DNA from: Parvicella tangerina
GTDB lineage: Bacteria; Bacteroidota; Bacteroidia; Flavobacteriales_D; Parvicellaceae
Assembly: GCF_907165195.1 (NCBI RefSeq)
Contig: NZ_OU015584.1
Location: forward strand, 3,482,978-3,546,977
Direction of reading: 5' to 3'
Length of the DNA: 64,000 nt
The notes under the pieces were generated by a model, which worked only from the letters and a program-made list of their open reading frames with translations, had not been told where the DNA came from and made no database searches. Below are positions 31,335-37,286 of this stretch, one piece after another. Within the stretch, counting starts at the first letter, position 1; each line of letters opens with the position of its first letter. A program made the translations under genes and the position numbers.

Positions 31335-31817
31335 CTAGGCAGTTTTTCGTTTAAGGCTCATGGACTTTCTTGCCTCTTTGAAGTATTTTTTGGGAACGAT
31401 GAGCATGCCAAAACACTCTCCATCTTCTTTTCCTAAATGCTTGTGATGGACTTTATGAGCCTTTCTAAGCGCTCGAAAATAAATGTTATCTGTTCTCGTG
31501 AACCATTTGAATCGTTGGTGAATGAACACATCGTGCACCAAGAAATAGCAAAATCCATAAATAGCAATACCAATCCCAATGCTTACAGCAATGTAATTTG
31601 CATTCATCATGCCCAACATGATACACAACCAACTTGGCACAGCGAAAATCAAGAAAAACACATCGTTCTTTTCAAAAAAACCAGGTTCGTGTTGATGGTG
31701 ATCTTCATGGAAATACCACATCAGACCATGCATCACATATTTATGTGTGAACCAAGCCATGAATTCCATAAAAAAGAAAGTAGCTACAATTACCAACACG
31801 TAAACTAATGTCATCAT
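31335..31817 (-). CDS. crtZ: Beta-carotene 3-hydroxylase, CrtZ type
   Basis: Membrane non-heme diiron hydroxylase of the fatty acid hydroxylase superfamily, 160 residues with four helices. All four His clusters are visible: HKYVMH, HEDHHQH, HDVFIH and HKVHHKH. It adds a 3-OH to beta-ionone rings. Its start overlaps the cruF stop by 4 bases. Length matches bacterial CrtZ. Confidence 0.93.
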   Translation of the reverse strand: MMTLVYVLVIVATFFFMEFMAWFTHKYVMHGLMWYFHEDHHQHEPGFFEKNDVFFLIFAVPSWLCIMLGMMNANYIAVSIGIGIAIYGFCYFLVHDVFIHQRFKWFTRTDNIYFRALRKAHKVHHKHLGKEDGECFGMLIVPKKYFKEARKSMSLKRKTA

Positions 31818-32479
31818 ATTGCGATTCTTAATGTTGTAAAAAATATCATTTGAATAATAAACAAATAAATGGCGACTTTGTTGTCTCCCTCAGCCTTAGT
31901 GAGCATGATCACTTTATTAAACACTGCTGCTAAAACAAACCAAGCCACATAATTTTGAATAGGAATTTCAGGGTTAGACCAACTCCAAAAATCAAGCTTT
32001 ACGGCTACTGGCTCAATGATGAAATCGAGCAAAACTAAACTCACAGCAGCAAAAAATGGCACAACATACCATTTCTTGAACCACCTGGAGAATGTATACA
32101 CGCTAAAATAGCAAAGCATAGCCCAGTTTAACCCGATAACCAAGGGAACATCAAGTACTTTGACGCCTAGAGAATTTCCATAACTGTACACCCCAAATAT
32201 CTCACCCGTTTTGACGCCCAGCACTTCAATAAAGAACCCCAAAATGGCTACAGCCGCTATACCAAGAACCGTGATCGTCTTCCAATTTTCATGATTTGCA
32301 AACAATACAACGGCTGATATGATCAAGTTTAGCCAAGATAGCTGTGCAAACTGCTGTGGATTATCGCTTACTAACATTCCTGTTAGTCCAACACCGTAGA
32401 AAATAACGAGTAGTAAGAGAGAAATCTCAAACTTATATTTAACTAACTGCTGGAGCATGATTGGTTGCAATTTTAGCAC
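31814..32479 (-). CDS. cruF: Carotenoid 1,2-hydratase, CruF-like (DUF422)
   Basis: A seven-helix integral membrane protein of 221 residues. FGVYSYGNSLGVKVLDVPLVIGLNWAM fits the carotenoid biosynthesis (CruF/DUF422) family, which adds water to the psi end of acyclic or monocyclic carotenoids to make a 1'-OH. The overlap with the desaturase gene is 41 bases; an internal ATG at residue 8 (32458) would shorten the overlap to 20. It lies between the crtD-like gene and crtZ, the gene set known from saproxanthin- and myxol-producing flavobacteria. Confidence 0.8.
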   Translation of the reverse strand: MLKLQPIMLQQLVKYKFEISLLLLVIFYGVGLTGMLVSDNPQQFAQLSWLNLIISAVVLFANHENWKTITVLGIAAVAILGFFIEVLGVKTGEIFGVYSYGNSLGVKVLDVPLVIGLNWAMLCYFSVYTFSRWFKKWYVVPFFAAVSLVLLDFIIEPVAVKLDFWSWSNPEIPIQNYVAWFVLAAVFNKVIMLTKAEGDNKVAIYLFIIQMIFFTTLRIAI

Positions 32480-33923
32480 TTAACAAACACAATGGTATTC
32501 CCCCGCCGGGGTGAGCACTACCACCTACAAAGTAAAGTCCTTTAAGTTTCTTATGAAAATTGGGATGTCGCAAAAACGCAGCATATTTCGAATTGCTAGA
32601 AGTGCCATACAGCGAACCTTGGTATGAGAGTGTTTTGGACTCTATCGTCTCTGGAAAAAGCTTCTCTTCACAAGTGATAAGACCGTCTATATCTTCACCT
32701 AAAGCGACACTTAATTTACGGATAATGTTCTTTTTTGAGTTTTCAATATATTCTTCCCAATTGATCGTTCCTTTTGGAGGCGTGTTGATCATTACAAACC
32801 AATTCTCGCCATTTTCGGGAGCATCATCCTTCTTTACTTTTGATGAGATATGTATATAGATAGTTGGATCATCAAATAGCTGTTTTTTGTCAAAAATGGC
32901 TTCAAATTCACCACGATAGTCATCAGCGAAAAAAATATTGTGTACTCCCATCTGCTCAAACTGCTTGTTGATTCCCCAATAAAATATCAACGCGCTACTA
33001 GACCTTTCCTGTTCCAGTTTCTTCTGAGGCACCTGGATTCCTTTTAGTAGCTTATGATAGGTAAAATATACATCCATATTGCTGTATACAACGTCAGCAT
33101 GCACTACACCATCATCTTGAATACGAACCCCCGAGATGATATTTCCATCGTGAAGGATTTCCAAAACAGGGGTATTATATGTAAACCTAACACCAAGATC
33201 TTCTGCCAGTTTCAACAACGAATTGGTAATGGAAACCATTCCTTTTTTCGGAAAGAAAGCTCCTACATTGAACTCATAATGAGGAATCACCTCCATAATA
33301 CCAGGTGTTTGGAAGGGGCTTGAGCCATTGTAGGTAGCATATCGATCAAAAAGCTGAACTAATTTAGGATCATCAAAAGACCTTTGATTGACCTCATGTA
33401 GTGTTTTATTTAGTCCAAGCTTAGGTGTCCGGAAGATCGCTTTTGCCGTTGCTAAATTCAAGAATCCCCGCCAATCATTAAGACTTTGTTCTAAAAATAA
33501 TTTTCCAGTAGTTTCTTCAATAAACTTTGCCTGCTCAAGCTTTGCTATAATCTGTTCTTTGGTACAATTGAAGTGAAATGCAGCATCCTTAGCAAATTGA
33601 TTAGGTTTGGCATCTGCAACAAAGGAAGTTCCATCGTTCCAGAAATAATGACAAACTTTTTCAAGCCGTTCATAAGTAAAGTACGCTTCGGGCTTCCTTC
33701 CAGCTAATGCAAATAATTCCTCAACGTACTGAGGCATGGTAAACAAGGAAGGGCCTGCGTCAAAGCGATAATCACCACATCGAATTTCCGACAGTTTTCC
33801 TCCTGGATAGCCGTTCTTTTCAAATACGCTGACGTCATATCCTTTAACTGCCAATCGAATGGAAGCAGCTATCCCAGCTATCCCAGAACCTATAACAATT
33901 GCTTTTTTAGGCATTTTTGCCAA
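32439..33923 (-). CDS. crtD: Carotenoid desaturase, CrtI/CrtD family (CrtD-like)
   Basis: FAD-dependent desaturase of 494 residues. The N-terminal dinucleotide fold is VIGSGIAGIAASIRLAVKGYDV, followed by FEKNGYPGGK; the C-terminal FAD segment is GLYFVGGSAHPGGGIPLCLLSAKIA. It is the second CrtI-family gene of the operon. Because crtI is already present at 35220 and CruF is encoded next door, I assign this one as 1-hydroxycarotenoid 3,4-desaturase (CrtD); the split of roles between the two is inferred, not proven. Starts 17 bases inside the SRPBCC gene. Confidence 0.8.
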   Translation of the reverse strand: MAKMPKKAIVIGSGIAGIAASIRLAVKGYDVSVFEKNGYPGGKLSEIRCGDYRFDAGPSLFTMPQYVEELFALAGRKPEAYFTYERLEKVCHYFWNDGTSFVADAKPNQFAKDAAFHFNCTKEQIIAKLEQAKFIEETTGKLFLEQSLNDWRGFLNLATAKAIFRTPKLGLNKTLHEVNQRSFDDPKLVQLFDRYATYNGSSPFQTPGIMEVIPHYEFNVGAFFPKKGMVSITNSLLKLAEDLGVRFTYNTPVLEILHDGNIISGVRIQDDGVVHADVVYSNMDVYFTYHKLLKGIQVPQKKLEQERSSSALIFYWGINKQFEQMGVHNIFFADDYRGEFEAIFDKKQLFDDPTIYIHISSKVKKDDAPENGENWFVMINTPPKGTINWEEYIENSKKNIIRKLSVALGEDIDGLITCEEKLFPETIESKTLSYQGSLYGTSSNSKYAAFLRHPNFHKKLKGLYFVGGSAHPGGGIPLCLLSAKIATNHAPAVS

Positions 33924-34377
33924 AGATATCTTTTATTATTTTTTTTCTGTAGTCGAAGATTTCTTTGAGCTTTTTTCTAATCAACACCTTATTTGCTAAA
34001 TCTCCTAGCACACCCATTGGAGGTTGATAGTGGACAATATCCTCCATCAGTACACCATGTTCAACTTCCTTAAATCGATGTTGATGGTGCCAGATTTTGT
34101 AAGGACCTTGCTTTTGCTCATCGATAAAAAAATAAGGTTCCTTGACCTGGGTAATCTCTGTAGTCCATTTCATCGGAATGCCCGCTACGGGTTTAACCAC
34201 ATACCGAATGATCTGGCCTGGATACATTTCTTCTGTGTCAGCGTTAGAAATAATATCAAACCCCATGTAATCTGGGGTGATCTTTTTCAGGTTCTCCGGA
34301 CTAGAAAAAAAGCTCCATGCCTCTTGCATTGAGACATCTTTCAATAATTGATCTCTTTTTAAGACATGAACTCCCAT
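33907..34377 (-). CDS. SRPBCC-fold ligand-binding/cyclase-like protein
   Basis: 156 residues with the helix-grip (START/polyketide cyclase-like) pattern: MQEAWSFFSSPENLKKITPDYMGFDI and PYKIWHHQHRFKEVEHGVLMEDIVHYQ. No signal peptide or membrane helix. SRPBCC proteins bind hydrophobic ligands. It sits between crtB and the crtD-like gene, with a 17-base overlap to the latter and 4 bases after crtB, so it is co-expressed with carotenoid synthesis. A carrier or chaperone for carotenoid intermediates is a reasonable inference, but no direct evidence is visible. Confidence 0.8.
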   Translation of the reverse strand: MGVHVLKRDQLLKDVSMQEAWSFFSSPENLKKITPDYMGFDIISNADTEEMYPGQIIRYVVKPVAGIPMKWTTEITQVKEPYFFIDEQKQGPYKIWHHQHRFKEVEHGVLMEDIVHYQPPMGVLGDLANKVLIRKKLKEIFDYRKKIIKDIFGKNA

Positions 34378-34381
34378 GGCA

Positions 34382-35218
34382 TTACAATAAGTTGAAACTA
34401 TGCTTCAAATAAGAGCTAAAAAACAGTGCGTACTTCTTACGATTTGGAATTCTAATACGCGTATTCATGATTGCGGAGGCTGGAGTTTTCTGAATCTTAT
34501 TTAGAAGTCGCGCATAATAGATGTAGGCCACATAAACACCAAACCTCGATTCTTTCGGAAGCTTTGTAATCCCGATATACCCCTGTCTGAAATCTTCTGC
34601 GATATCTTCCTCCAATTGAGCTTTTACCTCATCGTCAAAAGCTTCGAAGTCCACTCCTGGAAAATAAGTTCTTCCCAATTCTTTGTAATCATCTTTCAAA
34701 TCTCTGAGAAAGTTTATTTTCTGAAAAGCAGAACCTAGCTTCATTGCATAAGGCTTAAGTTCTTCATACATTTTCTCATCACCATCCACAAACACCTTTA
34801 GACACATCAATCCTACGACTTCCGCTGAGCCCAAGATATACTTTTCATAGGTGTCCTGATCATACTCAACATCTCCCAGATCCATCTCCATACTATCCAG
34901 AAAAGTATCGGTAAGTTCCAAAGGAATTTTATACTTATTCACCACCCATTGGTAAGCATTCAGCACGGGATTTGTACTAATCTTATCTTGTATCGCCTTA
35001 TAGGTGTCTGCTCTAAACTCTTTGAGCAATCGTCTCTTATCAAAATCATGAAAGGTATCCACAATTTCGTCTGCCACTCTTACATAACCGTAAATAGCAT
35101 AAATGGGGTCATGAAAGCGCTTGTGCAAGAAACGAATTCCCAATGAAAAGGAAGTACTGTATTTCTTTGTAATAATTGTACTTGACTTAATCGATATTTG
35201 ATCGTATAACTCTTTCAT
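34382..35218 (-). CDS. crtB: Phytoene synthase
   Basis: Joins two geranylgeranyl diphosphates to phytoene. 278 residues from the ATG at 35218 (MKELYDQISIKSS), 1 base after the crtI stop; a GTG at 35269 would add 17 residues overlapping crtI and is less likely. Asp-rich Mg-binding motifs are in YVRVADEIVDTFHD and INFLRDLKDDYKELGRTYFP. No geranylgeranyl diphosphate synthase (crtE) is in this window, so the substrate must come from a gene elsewhere. Confidence 0.95.
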   Translation of the reverse strand: MKELYDQISIKSSTIITKKYSTSFSLGIRFLHKRFHDPIYAIYGYVRVADEIVDTFHDFDKRRLLKEFRADTYKAIQDKISTNPVLNAYQWVVNKYKIPLELTDTFLDSMEMDLGDVEYDQDTYEKYILGSAEVVGLMCLKVFVDGDEKMYEELKPYAMKLGSAFQKINFLRDLKDDYKELGRTYFPGVDFEAFDDEVKAQLEEDIAEDFRQGYIGITKLPKESRFGVYVAYIYYARLLNKIQKTPASAIMNTRIRIPNRKKYALFFSSYLKHSFNLL

Positions 35219-35219
35219 T

Positions 35220-36695
35220 TTAGTTAGTTTTGAGGTACTTAATAGCTTCCTGAGCTGCGATTTTTCCACTAATTAAGGATGGTGGAACACCTGGTCCAGG
35301 AACCGTTAGTTGACCCGTATAAAACAAATTCTTTACTTTGTCATTATGCATTGATGGCTTCAAGATGGCTGTCTGTTTTAATGTATTTGCCAAACCATAA
35401 GCGTTTCCTTTATAAGCATTGTAGTCTTTTTTGAAATCCTTTAAAGAATAGGAGCGATTATAGATGATATGTTCTCTGACCTTTTGATCTGTTAACCGCT
35501 CTAATCGTTCTACAATCAATTCAAAGTATTTATTCCTCATTTCTTCAGTATCAGGAAGATCTGGAGCAACAGGAATTAACAAAAATAGATTCTCATAACC
35601 CTTTGGGGCAACAGATTCATCCGTTACGCTTGGAGCACAAACATAAAACAATGGGTTACTTGGCCATTTGGGTGTATCGTAAATTTCTCTAGCATGTAAA
35701 TTAAAGTCTTGATCAAAGAACAGGTTGTGATGAAGCAGATTTTTCAGCTTCTTATTCACTCCCACATAATAGAGTAAACAGCTAGGCGCCAAAACTCTAG
35801 AATCCCAATAATCCTCTGAATACTTTCTATGGGCTTTTTCTAGGAGGTTTTGCTCTACAAAGTGATAGTCGGCACTTGCAATAACGGCATCCGAATTTTG
35901 TTCACTATCGTTGGCAATTAAGCTTTTTACTCTCTTATTTTCGATAGACAGCTTTTCAACTGGTGCGTTTGTGTGAATTTCAACACCTAACTCTTTCGCA
36001 AGCAACTCCATGCCTTCGATAACTTTATGCATTCCTCCCATGGGATACCATGTTCCTCCAACGATGTCTGCATAATTCATTAAACTGTAAAGCGCAGGAA
36101 TGTTCTCTGGCTTCGCACCCAAAAACAAGACCGGAAACTCAATAATCTGAATGAGTTTCGGATTATTAAAATACTGTCTGATATATTTCGAAAATGACTT
36201 GAACAACTGCAACCTGAAAACACCTTTTACCACATCAAATGTGGCGAATTCCAGAAGAGACTTACTTGGCTTTTGAACGAGGTCATTAATTCCCACACGA
36301 TACTTGTAAGCCGCATCATCAAGAAACCTTCTTAATCTTGCAGCGCTTCCCTCCTCAATACGTTCAAATGTGTCATAAAGCTCATCCAAGTTAGATGGTA
36401 AATCCACGAAATCGTTTTCACCAAAGAAAACACGGTAGGAAGGACTTAGCCTTACAAGTTCATAATAATCACTTGCTTTCTTTCCAAAATCGTTGAAAAA
36501 TGTCTCAAACACATCAGGCATCCAATACCAAGAAGGTCCCATATCAAACATGAACCCATCTGCTTCAAATTTTCGACTTCGCCCACCAACTGATTCATTT
36601 TTTTCAAAAATACGCACCTTGTGACCAGCCTTAGCCAAATAACACGCTGATGCGAGACCGCTATATCCGCCTCCAATAATATCTACCGTCTTCAT
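35220..36695 (-). CDS. crtI: Phytoene desaturase
   Basis: 491 residues: N-terminal FAD fold DIIGGGYSGLASACYLAKAGHKVRIFEKN with SVGGRSRKF, and C-terminal signature NLFYTGQLTVPGPGVPPSLISGKIAAQEAI. It takes phytoene to lycopene (or neurosporene). Its start overlaps the sigma factor stop by 4 bases and crtB follows at once, so it is the second cistron of the light-regulated operon. Confidence 0.93.
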   Translation of the reverse strand: MKTVDIIGGGYSGLASACYLAKAGHKVRIFEKNESVGGRSRKFEADGFMFDMGPSWYWMPDVFETFFNDFGKKASDYYELVRLSPSYRVFFGENDFVDLPSNLDELYDTFERIEEGSAARLRRFLDDAAYKYRVGINDLVQKPSKSLLEFATFDVVKGVFRLQLFKSFSKYIRQYFNNPKLIQIIEFPVLFLGAKPENIPALYSLMNYADIVGGTWYPMGGMHKVIEGMELLAKELGVEIHTNAPVEKLSIENKRVKSLIANDSEQNSDAVIASADYHFVEQNLLEKAHRKYSEDYWDSRVLAPSCLLYYVGVNKKLKNLLHHNLFFDQDFNLHAREIYDTPKWPSNPLFYVCAPSVTDESVAPKGYENLFLLIPVAPDLPDTEEMRNKYFELIVERLERLTDQKVREHIIYNRSYSLKDFKKDYNAYKGNAYGLANTLKQTAILKPSMHNDKVKNLFYTGQLTVPGPGVPPSLISGKIAAQEAIKYLKTN

Positions 36696-37195
36696 GCCCT
36701 AAATTCTTTAAGTTCTTCCATTAGTTGCTGTCTAGCCATGTAGATTCGACTTTTTACCGTTCCAATGGGTAAGTTAAGTTCATCGCTAATCTCCTTATAC
36801 TTAAATCCTTCAACATGCTTCATAAAGGGTACGCTATACTCTTCATCAAGATTATTGATCTTACTCAAGATCTCTTCTGTATACAATTGAGAGGTTTGAC
36901 TTTGCAACTGTGACGTCTGACTGTTCAACATAAATGAGTTTGGAGAATCATCATGAATCATTGTCACTAATTTTCTTCTTCTGTAGTCATTAATGAAGGT
37001 ATTCTTCATGATGGTGTATAACCAAGCTTTAAGGTTGGTAGGAGATACAAATTTGTCACGATATTTCATCGCCTTCAACACTGTTTCCTGAAAAAGGTCT
37101 TTAGCATCTTCCTCATCCTTTGTTAGCGTTCTGGCAAAAGCATTTAGTTTGTCTTGAAACGTGGTTACTTGATAGTTAAATTCTAGAACAGTCAT
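36692..37195 (-). CDS. ECF-type RNA polymerase sigma factor
   Basis: 167 residues with the sigma-70 region 2 (DLFQETVLKAMKYRDKFVSPTNLKAWLYTIMKNTFINDYRRRK, about residues 28-76) and region 4 helix-turn-helix (FKYKEISDELNLPIGTVKSRIYMARQQL, about 130-157). No anti-sigma gene adjoins. It is the first gene of the carotenoid operon and is translationally coupled to crtI, so its level rises with pigment genes. Similar sigma-crt arrangements occur in light-regulated clusters. Its promoter (37221-37253) is covered by a set of heptamer repeats. Confidence 0.92.
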   Translation of the reverse strand: MTVLEFNYQVTTFQDKLNAFARTLTKDEEDAKDLFQETVLKAMKYRDKFVSPTNLKAWLYTIMKNTFINDYRRRKLVTMIHDDSPNSFMLNSQTSQLQSQTSQLYTEEILSKINNLDEEYSVPFMKHVEGFKYKEISDELNLPIGTVKSRIYMARQQLMEELKEFRA

Positions 37196-37203
37196 TTTGT
37201 TTT

Positions 37204-37286
37204 GTTTAACGTTTTCACTACAAAGTTAAACACTTTTATGTTAGACAAACAAATTTTTGTTTAACTTTTTATTGTATTAGTTAAAC
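37204..37286. promoter_or_regulatory. Cluster of five GTTTAAC/GTTAAAC heptamers, probable MerR-B12 operator
   Basis: Copies at 37204 (GTTTAAC), 37225 (GTTAAAC), 37240 (GTTAGAC, one mismatch), 37259 (GTTTAAC) and 37280 (GTTAAAC). Starts are 21, 15, 19 and 21 bases apart. The pair 37240-37265 forms a 26-base near-palindrome. The cluster covers the -33 and -7 elements of the sigma factor gene, as expected for a repressor. Confidence 0.65.
37221..37253 (-). promoter_or_regulatory. Promoter of the sigma-crt carotenoid operon
   Basis: On the minus strand -33 TTTG (37253-37250 or 37249-37246) and -7 TAACTTTG (37228-37221), exact TAnnTTTG, spaced 21 or 17 bases. This is the clearest two-part promoter in the window. 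The sigma factor ATG follows 25 bases downstream. Confidence 0.65.

Follow-up and report, generated by a model that had tools for sequence, protein, structure and literature searches.

The CarH operators that have been studied are made of tandem 11-bp direct repeats with a TnnACA core, and an earlier inverted-repeat reading of the Myxococcus operator has been revised to direct repeats (PMC8156234, PMC9304148). The class II LitR proteins PplR1 and PmlR2 of Pseudomonas recognize T(G/A)TACA-N12-TGTA(C/T)A, whose hexamers are self-symmetric; two such sites are present per promoter, over the -35 region and between the transcription start and the ATG, and PmlR2 is controlled by a LOV protein (PMC9758184). 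For Chryseobacterium lacus, the light regulator is described as unknown and the authors speculate on a hypothetical gene (PMC7064467). Our literature search, for which subscription journals were mostly beyond reach, found no described light-responsive or CarH operator for Bacteroidota. Here we analysed an array of heptamers in a 64,000-nucleotide stretch of the Parvicella tangerina genome (referred to as the window in the rest of the text). The array is real and more general than a first-pass annotation of this DNA had held, as its site is found across the phylum.

Results

Two inverted-repeat units lie between merR-B12 and the ECF sigma factor gene

The array occupies a gap between two minus-strand genes coding for a MerR-B12 protein and an ECF sigma factor. 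The sigma gene overlaps a crtI-like gene, after which come a crtB-like gene and further carotenoid genes (Table 1). The first-pass annotation had described five spaced heptamers in this gap, and their coordinates proved exact: GTTTAAC at 37204, GTTAAAC at 37225, GTTAGAC at 37240, GTTTAAC at 37259 and GTTAAAC at 37280, with starts separated by 21, 15, 19 and 21 bases. The fifth heptamer, GTTAGAC, is however a one-base variant that is missing from both congeners carrying the locus (see below). The other four make up two copies of a 28-bp divergent inverted repeat, GTTTAAC-N14-GTTAAAC, the distal copy overlapping the stop codon of merR. TnnACA is complete in three of the four half-sites of the window; the outer half of the distal unit, at 37280, reads GTTAAACG and is without the A that completes the core.

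Exact GTTTAAC-N14-GTTAAAC occurs only twice in the 3.98-Mb genome, both times in this gap. No copy with one mismatch was found genome-wide, and the 35 places matching with two mismatches correspond to background (54 for the reversed control). One scan for further sites in the same genome likewise gave none above control beyond the two units (14 vs 10). Four GTTWAAC words within 91 bp (37196-37286) arose in none of 20,000 dinucleotide shuffles, and three arose in 16. When any 7-mer on either strand was allowed, about 31% of 10,000 shuffles reached four copies too because the stretch is very A+T-rich; the heptamer count alone is thus weak, and the case is carried by the comparative evidence.

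Since inverted repeats can pair in RNA, the units might instead form a hairpin or an attenuator. Such a structure would close a 14-nt loop with seven A+U-rich pairs, the inner one of which is broken in many relatives, where ATTAAAC stands opposite GTTTAAG (judged by eye). The inferred transcription start, too, falls inside the proximal unit. We regard the probability of an RNA element as practically negligible.

Table 1. Features of the predicted operator region and of the neighbouring genes, in window coordinates.
Feature	Position	Strand	Remarks
Proximal operator unit (predicted), GTTTAAC-N14-GTTAAAC	37204..37231		Exact copy; kept in both congeners
Distal operator unit (predicted), GTTTAAC-N14-GTTAAAC	37259..37286		Exact copy; kept in both congeners
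GTTAGAC, fifth heptamer	37240..37246		Judged to lie outside the operator; missing in G026 and G027
-7 promoter box, TAACTTTG	37221..37228	-	Unchanged in all three congeneric gaps; agrees with TAnnTTTG at -12 to -5
TTTG at -33 to -30	37246..37249	-	In the interval separating the units, 17 nt ahead of the -7 box; read from the sequence
Inferred transcription start	37216	-	Counted by hand from the position of the -7 box
merR-B12 gene, CarH-type regulator, 292 aa	37281..38159	-	Pfam MerR_1, B12-binding_2, B12-binding; best solved matches are T. thermophilus CarH
ECF sigma factor gene	36692..37195	-	First gene after the operator; 4-bp overlap with the next gene; Pfam Sigma70_r2, Sigma70_r4_2
crtI-like phytoene desaturase gene	35220..36695	-	Pfam Amino_oxidase, NAD_binding_8; named from homology and context
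crtB-like phytoene synthase gene	34382..35269	-	Pfam SQS_PSY
SRPBCC-type protein gene	33907..34377	-	In the operon; Pfam Polyketide_cyc
Second crtI-like oxidoreductase gene	32439..33923	-	Pfam Amino_oxidase, NAD_binding_8
Carotenoid biosynthesis protein gene	31814..32479	-	Pfam Caroten_synth

The units, but not the fifth heptamer, are conserved in the genus

Besides that of the window, the genus is represented by three genomes, two of which carry merR (G026 and G027; MerR 53-54% identical). The two units are retained in both without a change of order, at distances of 55 and 53 bp, and each right half reads ATTAAAC in G026. Four of the five heptamers are therefore kept in the same gap of both congeners, a comparison that could have overturned the annotated array and did not. 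GTTAGAC and the spacer surrounding it are kept in neither genome. For this reason, the near-palindromic pair that had been proposed at 37240-37265, which depends on GTTAGAC, was dropped, and no conserved heptamer is left over the -33 element. A lattice of five heptamers was rejected on the same ground, GTTAGAC being absent from both congeners. The proposed two-turn phasing holds for the 21 bp inside each unit but not from one unit to the other: the unit-to-unit distance is 55 in the window and 53, 42, 44, 49, 50, 61 or 63 in relatives, so that fixed two-turn phasing between units was rejected as well.

The proximal unit covers the predicted core promoter

In flavobacteria, the TAnnTTTG element spans positions -12 to -5 (PMC9723704). 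Relative to the start inferred from such a box in the window, the proximal unit extends from about -15 to +13 and covers the -7 box ahead of the sigma-crt genes, and the distal unit extends from about -70 to -43. Heptamers had been annotated over both the -33 and the -7 elements. The -7 box does lie inside a conserved heptamer, but the TTTG at -33 (37249-37246) sits between the units. TTTG is the -33 promoter consensus; the exact letters of the window's copy are not retained in the congeners.

We tallied the offset of TAnnTTTG within 57 sites from 43 sigma promoters and obtained values of -6 (4 sites), 4 (6), 14/15 (24) and 31 (1), the offset in the window being 4; in this tally three sites are counted twice and about 25 of the 57 sites are without an exact TAnnTTTG. 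The registers in which the predicted operator covers the core promoter differ by about one helical turn (~10 bp), a pattern that is partly dovetailing because TTTG and TTTAA are common to the box and the half-sites.

These registers bear on the possibility that the same protein occupies the units but acts in the light as an activator or a dual regulator, as is reported for LitR at litS. Classical MerR activator sites are pseudo-palindromes placed in the -35/-10 spacer in a fixed register, and many MerR proteins activate. The protein encoded in the window has a MerR-family DNA-binding domain according to Pfam, and Streptomyces LitR is described as promoting litS transcription in the light (PMC12705666). 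However, the units lie over the -7 box and the start instead of the spacer, and they do so in several registers separated by about 10 bp, a freedom not expected of an activator that works by twisting the spacer. The arrangement suits occlusion better than spacer twisting, which makes activation improbable.

The same spacing recurs in the family and across the phylum

The MerR protein was detected in 31 of 39 family genomes, that of the window included. Across 30 family loci (again with the window), N14 was the only enriched spacing among those compared, from 0 to 30, with 9, 10 and 19 sites at 0, 1 and 2 mismatches, respectively, in 27 of the 30 loci, against at most 7 in all for any other spacing. 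L020, L022 and L026 contain no N14 site in the part of the locus that was fetched. In most loci with overlapping merR and crtI genes, the site lies directly at the merR start codon; in three loci of a single genus that have a gap between merR and crtI, it abuts the crtI start. Where merR heads an operon (L031-L045 and others), only a few bases separate the end of the site from the merR ATG, a position that would imply autorepression and very short leaders. The most regular array seen, four heptamers at exact 21-bp steps, belongs to L021/L095 (G036) and precedes a sigma gene starting about 760 bp after merR.

For the phylum, we used the best 80 of 590 named Bacteroidota loci recovered with a protein profile. 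N14 gave 78 sites in this set (6, 24 and 48 at 0, 1 and 2 mismatches, respectively), and each other spacing from 4 to 25 gave between 2 and 11. A tblastn match to the sigma factor of the window was detected in 49 of the 80 loci. In a segment running from 200 bp before to 20 bp after the start of sigma, an N14 site was found in 43 of these 49 loci at up to two mismatches and in all 49 at up to three, L134, L143, L152, L155, L167 and L187 having none at two mismatches and one at three. Other spacings from 8 to 20 were matched in 0-6 sigma promoters at up to two mismatches and in 1-12 at up to three, and mononucleotide shuffles in 0.1 of 49.

In 137 of 156 halves, the heptamer used for searching is followed by A, and the half-site so extended, TTAAACA, contains TnnACA. 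Among exact half-site words upstream of sigma in the 49 loci, divergent pairs at 23 bp occurred 42 times; the other peaks, direct pairs at 44 and 63, equal unit-to-unit distances, and no 11-bp direct repeat appeared among counts of at least 3. No ECF sigma factor was detected in 31 of the named merR-B12 loci, and 26 of these are without the palindrome too (e.g. L121, L139-L141, L150, L159). Loci of this kind may use another operator form or occupy a different place in the network.

The association with sigma genes could also mean that the repeats are -35 and -10 promoter elements read by the ECF sigma factor itself, that is, autoregulation. The site precedes the sigma gene in 43 of the 49 named loci that have one, and among the 31 loci in which no sigma factor was detected, just 5 have any site at up to two mismatches. 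Yet the site has symmetry, many of its copies are interlocked with a TAnnTTTG box of the housekeeping type, and strict sites (see below) occur in 27 of 39 family genomes whereas, among the matches listed, an orthologue of the sigma factor at 50% identity or more occurs in 4 of 39, the others reaching at most 35%. As the site is not confined to genomes with the cognate sigma factor, we rejected this reading, which we hold to be highly improbable.

The palindrome co-occurs with merR-B12

We scored 296 phylum genomes that are at least 90% complete for a MerR-B12 homologue (E <=1e-20) and for TGTTTAAY-N14-RTTAAACA. The palindrome occurs in 41 genomes, the homologue in 61 and both in 39 (Fisher 1.8e-30), which amounts to 39 of 61 genomes with the gene vs 2 of 235 without it, and within the class to 39 of 56 vs 0 of 17 (1.3e-7), although the P values overstate the case because the genomes are related and many of the sites belong to merR's own operon. 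The reversed-pattern control matched 3 of the 296 genomes. The 22 of 61 merR genomes that are without the strict palindrome may use a diverged or a different operator. Among the eight family genomes without a detected merR, two have the strict site (G007 and G021, both incomplete).

The encoded protein resembles CarH

The MerR-B12 protein displays the domain make-up of CarH and class I LitR, with an N-terminal MerR domain and C-terminal B12-binding_2 and B12-binding domains, all Pfam matches being above the curated cut-offs. Its best solved matches by phmmer are the T. thermophilus CarH entries 3whp and 5c8d (E about 2e-12). The key AdoCbl residues of CarH are W131, E141, H142 and H177 (PMC11796333); W139, E149, H150 and H188 align to them and are invariant in all ten sequences compared, the window's included. 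As these residues are kept, the protein is likely to bind B12 and to respond to light. From its homology and from the position of the units, we infer that it would bind them as an oligomer, in a manner dependent on AdoCbl and light, and that it would repress and not activate.

Candidate targets in relatives

A stricter pattern, TTGTTTAAY-N14-RTTAAACAA, has 58 sites in 27 of the 39 family genomes, whereas its reversed control has none; the window's own units (genome G000) miss this pattern because of their outer flanks. A loose palindrome matched all 39 family genomes but its control had hits in many of them, and it was therefore used only for choosing places to inspect. Neighbours were listed for 50 distinct sites of the 58 (loci L046 upward, L110-L189 excepted), with names taken from Pfam on single members and from BLAST grouping or by eye for the rest, those of the ABC ATPase, transporter and TonB-type proteins mostly by eye. 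Strict sites adjoin genes for glutathione peroxidase (7 sites, one genus), a CarboxypepD_reg/TonB-type protein (7, some merely divergent to merR), a SOUL heme protein with DUF429 (6, three genera), a fasciclin-like protein (4, four genera including the window's), an HMG-CoA reductase-like protein with a transporter (4, one genus), PTPS (3, two genera), an ABC ATPase (3) and rhodopsin (once among the 50). The glutathione peroxidase sites, and likewise the HMG-CoA reductase sites, are not independent, as each group comes from one genus. The remaining neighbours have no evident light function.

In an other-family sample of 22 sites from five genomes, at places that were chosen and not random, 7 sites precede fasciclin-like genes, 2 crtI-like genes and 2, in one promoter, rhodopsin and dioxygenase genes; the genes following the other 11 have an unknown function or none that evidently relates to light. 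The two palindromes of that shared promoter (L258, 1546-1609; G126, another family) are 34 bp apart, with the rhodopsin gene reading away on one side and the beta-carotene dioxygenase gene on the other, an arrangement which suggests that the rhodopsin and the supply of its retinal are under common control by light. We predict from these neighbourhoods that the site controls a wider photoprotection and rhodopsin regulon in relatives.

Association, however strong, is not binding, and another transcription factor travelling with merR might bind the units. In the other-family sample, 5 of the 22 sites precede a protein of ~218-226 aa that is possibly a regulator; one member gave no Pfam match. This protein, starting with MAKKK or similar, lies beside the palindrome in L245, L248, L251, L256 and L261 (G156, G141, G236, G264 and G126) and opposite a DUF2911-like gene in four of the five loci. 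Against a factor other than MerR-B12 stand the facts that merR is the common neighbour across loci, that the half-site carries the CarH core and that the site is found at merR itself where merR heads the operon. Binding by such a factor appears quite improbable.

Discussion

The two units are probably the operator of the CarH-type B12 photoreceptor-repressor encoded immediately upstream, with repression in the dark and release in the light, a reading to which we assign a probability of about 0.8. The first-pass annotation had likewise proposed that a repressor, MerR-B12, docks over the sigma-crt promoter. This is the best-supported reading of the sequence, in the form of two inverted-repeat units and not of a five-heptamer lattice. 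In the dark, a multimer of the AdoCbl-loaded repressor would grip the two outward-pointing half-sites (RTTAAACA) of each unit, which would lie on one face of the DNA because 21 bp make two helical turns. The proximal unit would then cover the -7 box and the start and block the housekeeping RNA polymerase, and the distal unit would add affinity or cooperativity. Photolysis of AdoCbl by light would dissociate the repressor and allow transcription of the ECF sigma-crt operon.

Because the N14 site recurs near a gene for a vitamin-B12 light sensor in many Bacteroidota, it is most likely a switch for light-induced pigment genes and, in some relatives, for genes of light-driven proton pumps. We think it reasonably probable that these loci belong to an undescribed B12-photoreceptor regulon of Bacteroidota, in which a CarH-type repressor reads TGTTTAAY-N14-RTTAAACA and not tandem 11-bp repeats. 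Its targets would be carotenoid genes together with others that depend on the lineage, predicted to be those for proteorhodopsin with a dioxygenase that makes its retinal, HMG-CoA reductase, glutathione peroxidase, SOUL and fasciclin proteins; for the lineage of the window, control would centre on a single ECF sigma-crt operon. The site would offer a DNA signature for light control across Bacteroidota, rhodopsin-bearing genomes included.

Among the described systems, Chryseobacterium lacus is a flavobacterium, and its crt genes rise in the light (PMC7064467). The Streptomyces LitR-LitS system resembles the arrangement predicted here in that a B12 MerR photoreceptor controls a sigma gene that serves carotenoid genes (PMC12705666), but in Streptomyces the sigma factor drives a separate crtE promoter, whereas the overlap of sigma and crt genes in the window suggests a single transcript. 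Class II LitR operators resemble the predicted one in that each promoter has two sites and each site is made of two half-sites; the sequence here, in contrast, is not T(G/A)TACA-N12-TGTA(C/T)A but TGTTTA-N18-TAAACA, and the regulator keeps its B12 residues. The likeness to the CarH operators of Thermus thermophilus, Bacillus megaterium and myxobacteria extends to the MerR-B12 domain make-up, the TnnACA core, present here in the TTAAACA consensus, and the overlap with a carotenoid promoter, which for the window is a predicted one. Those operators are built of tandem 11-bp repeats; in place of three to five such direct repeats, we found divergent inverted pairs 21 bp apart, usually as one or two units. 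With a protein that has the features of CarH and DNA that departs from its tandem repeats, the locus would therefore work like a CarH operator of different geometry. The type of protein is known, and the operator geometry is new relative to described CarH operators; it would imply that half-sites can be recognized by CarH-type proteins in inverted and not just in tandem arrangement, a point of relevance to the docking of the multimer on DNA.
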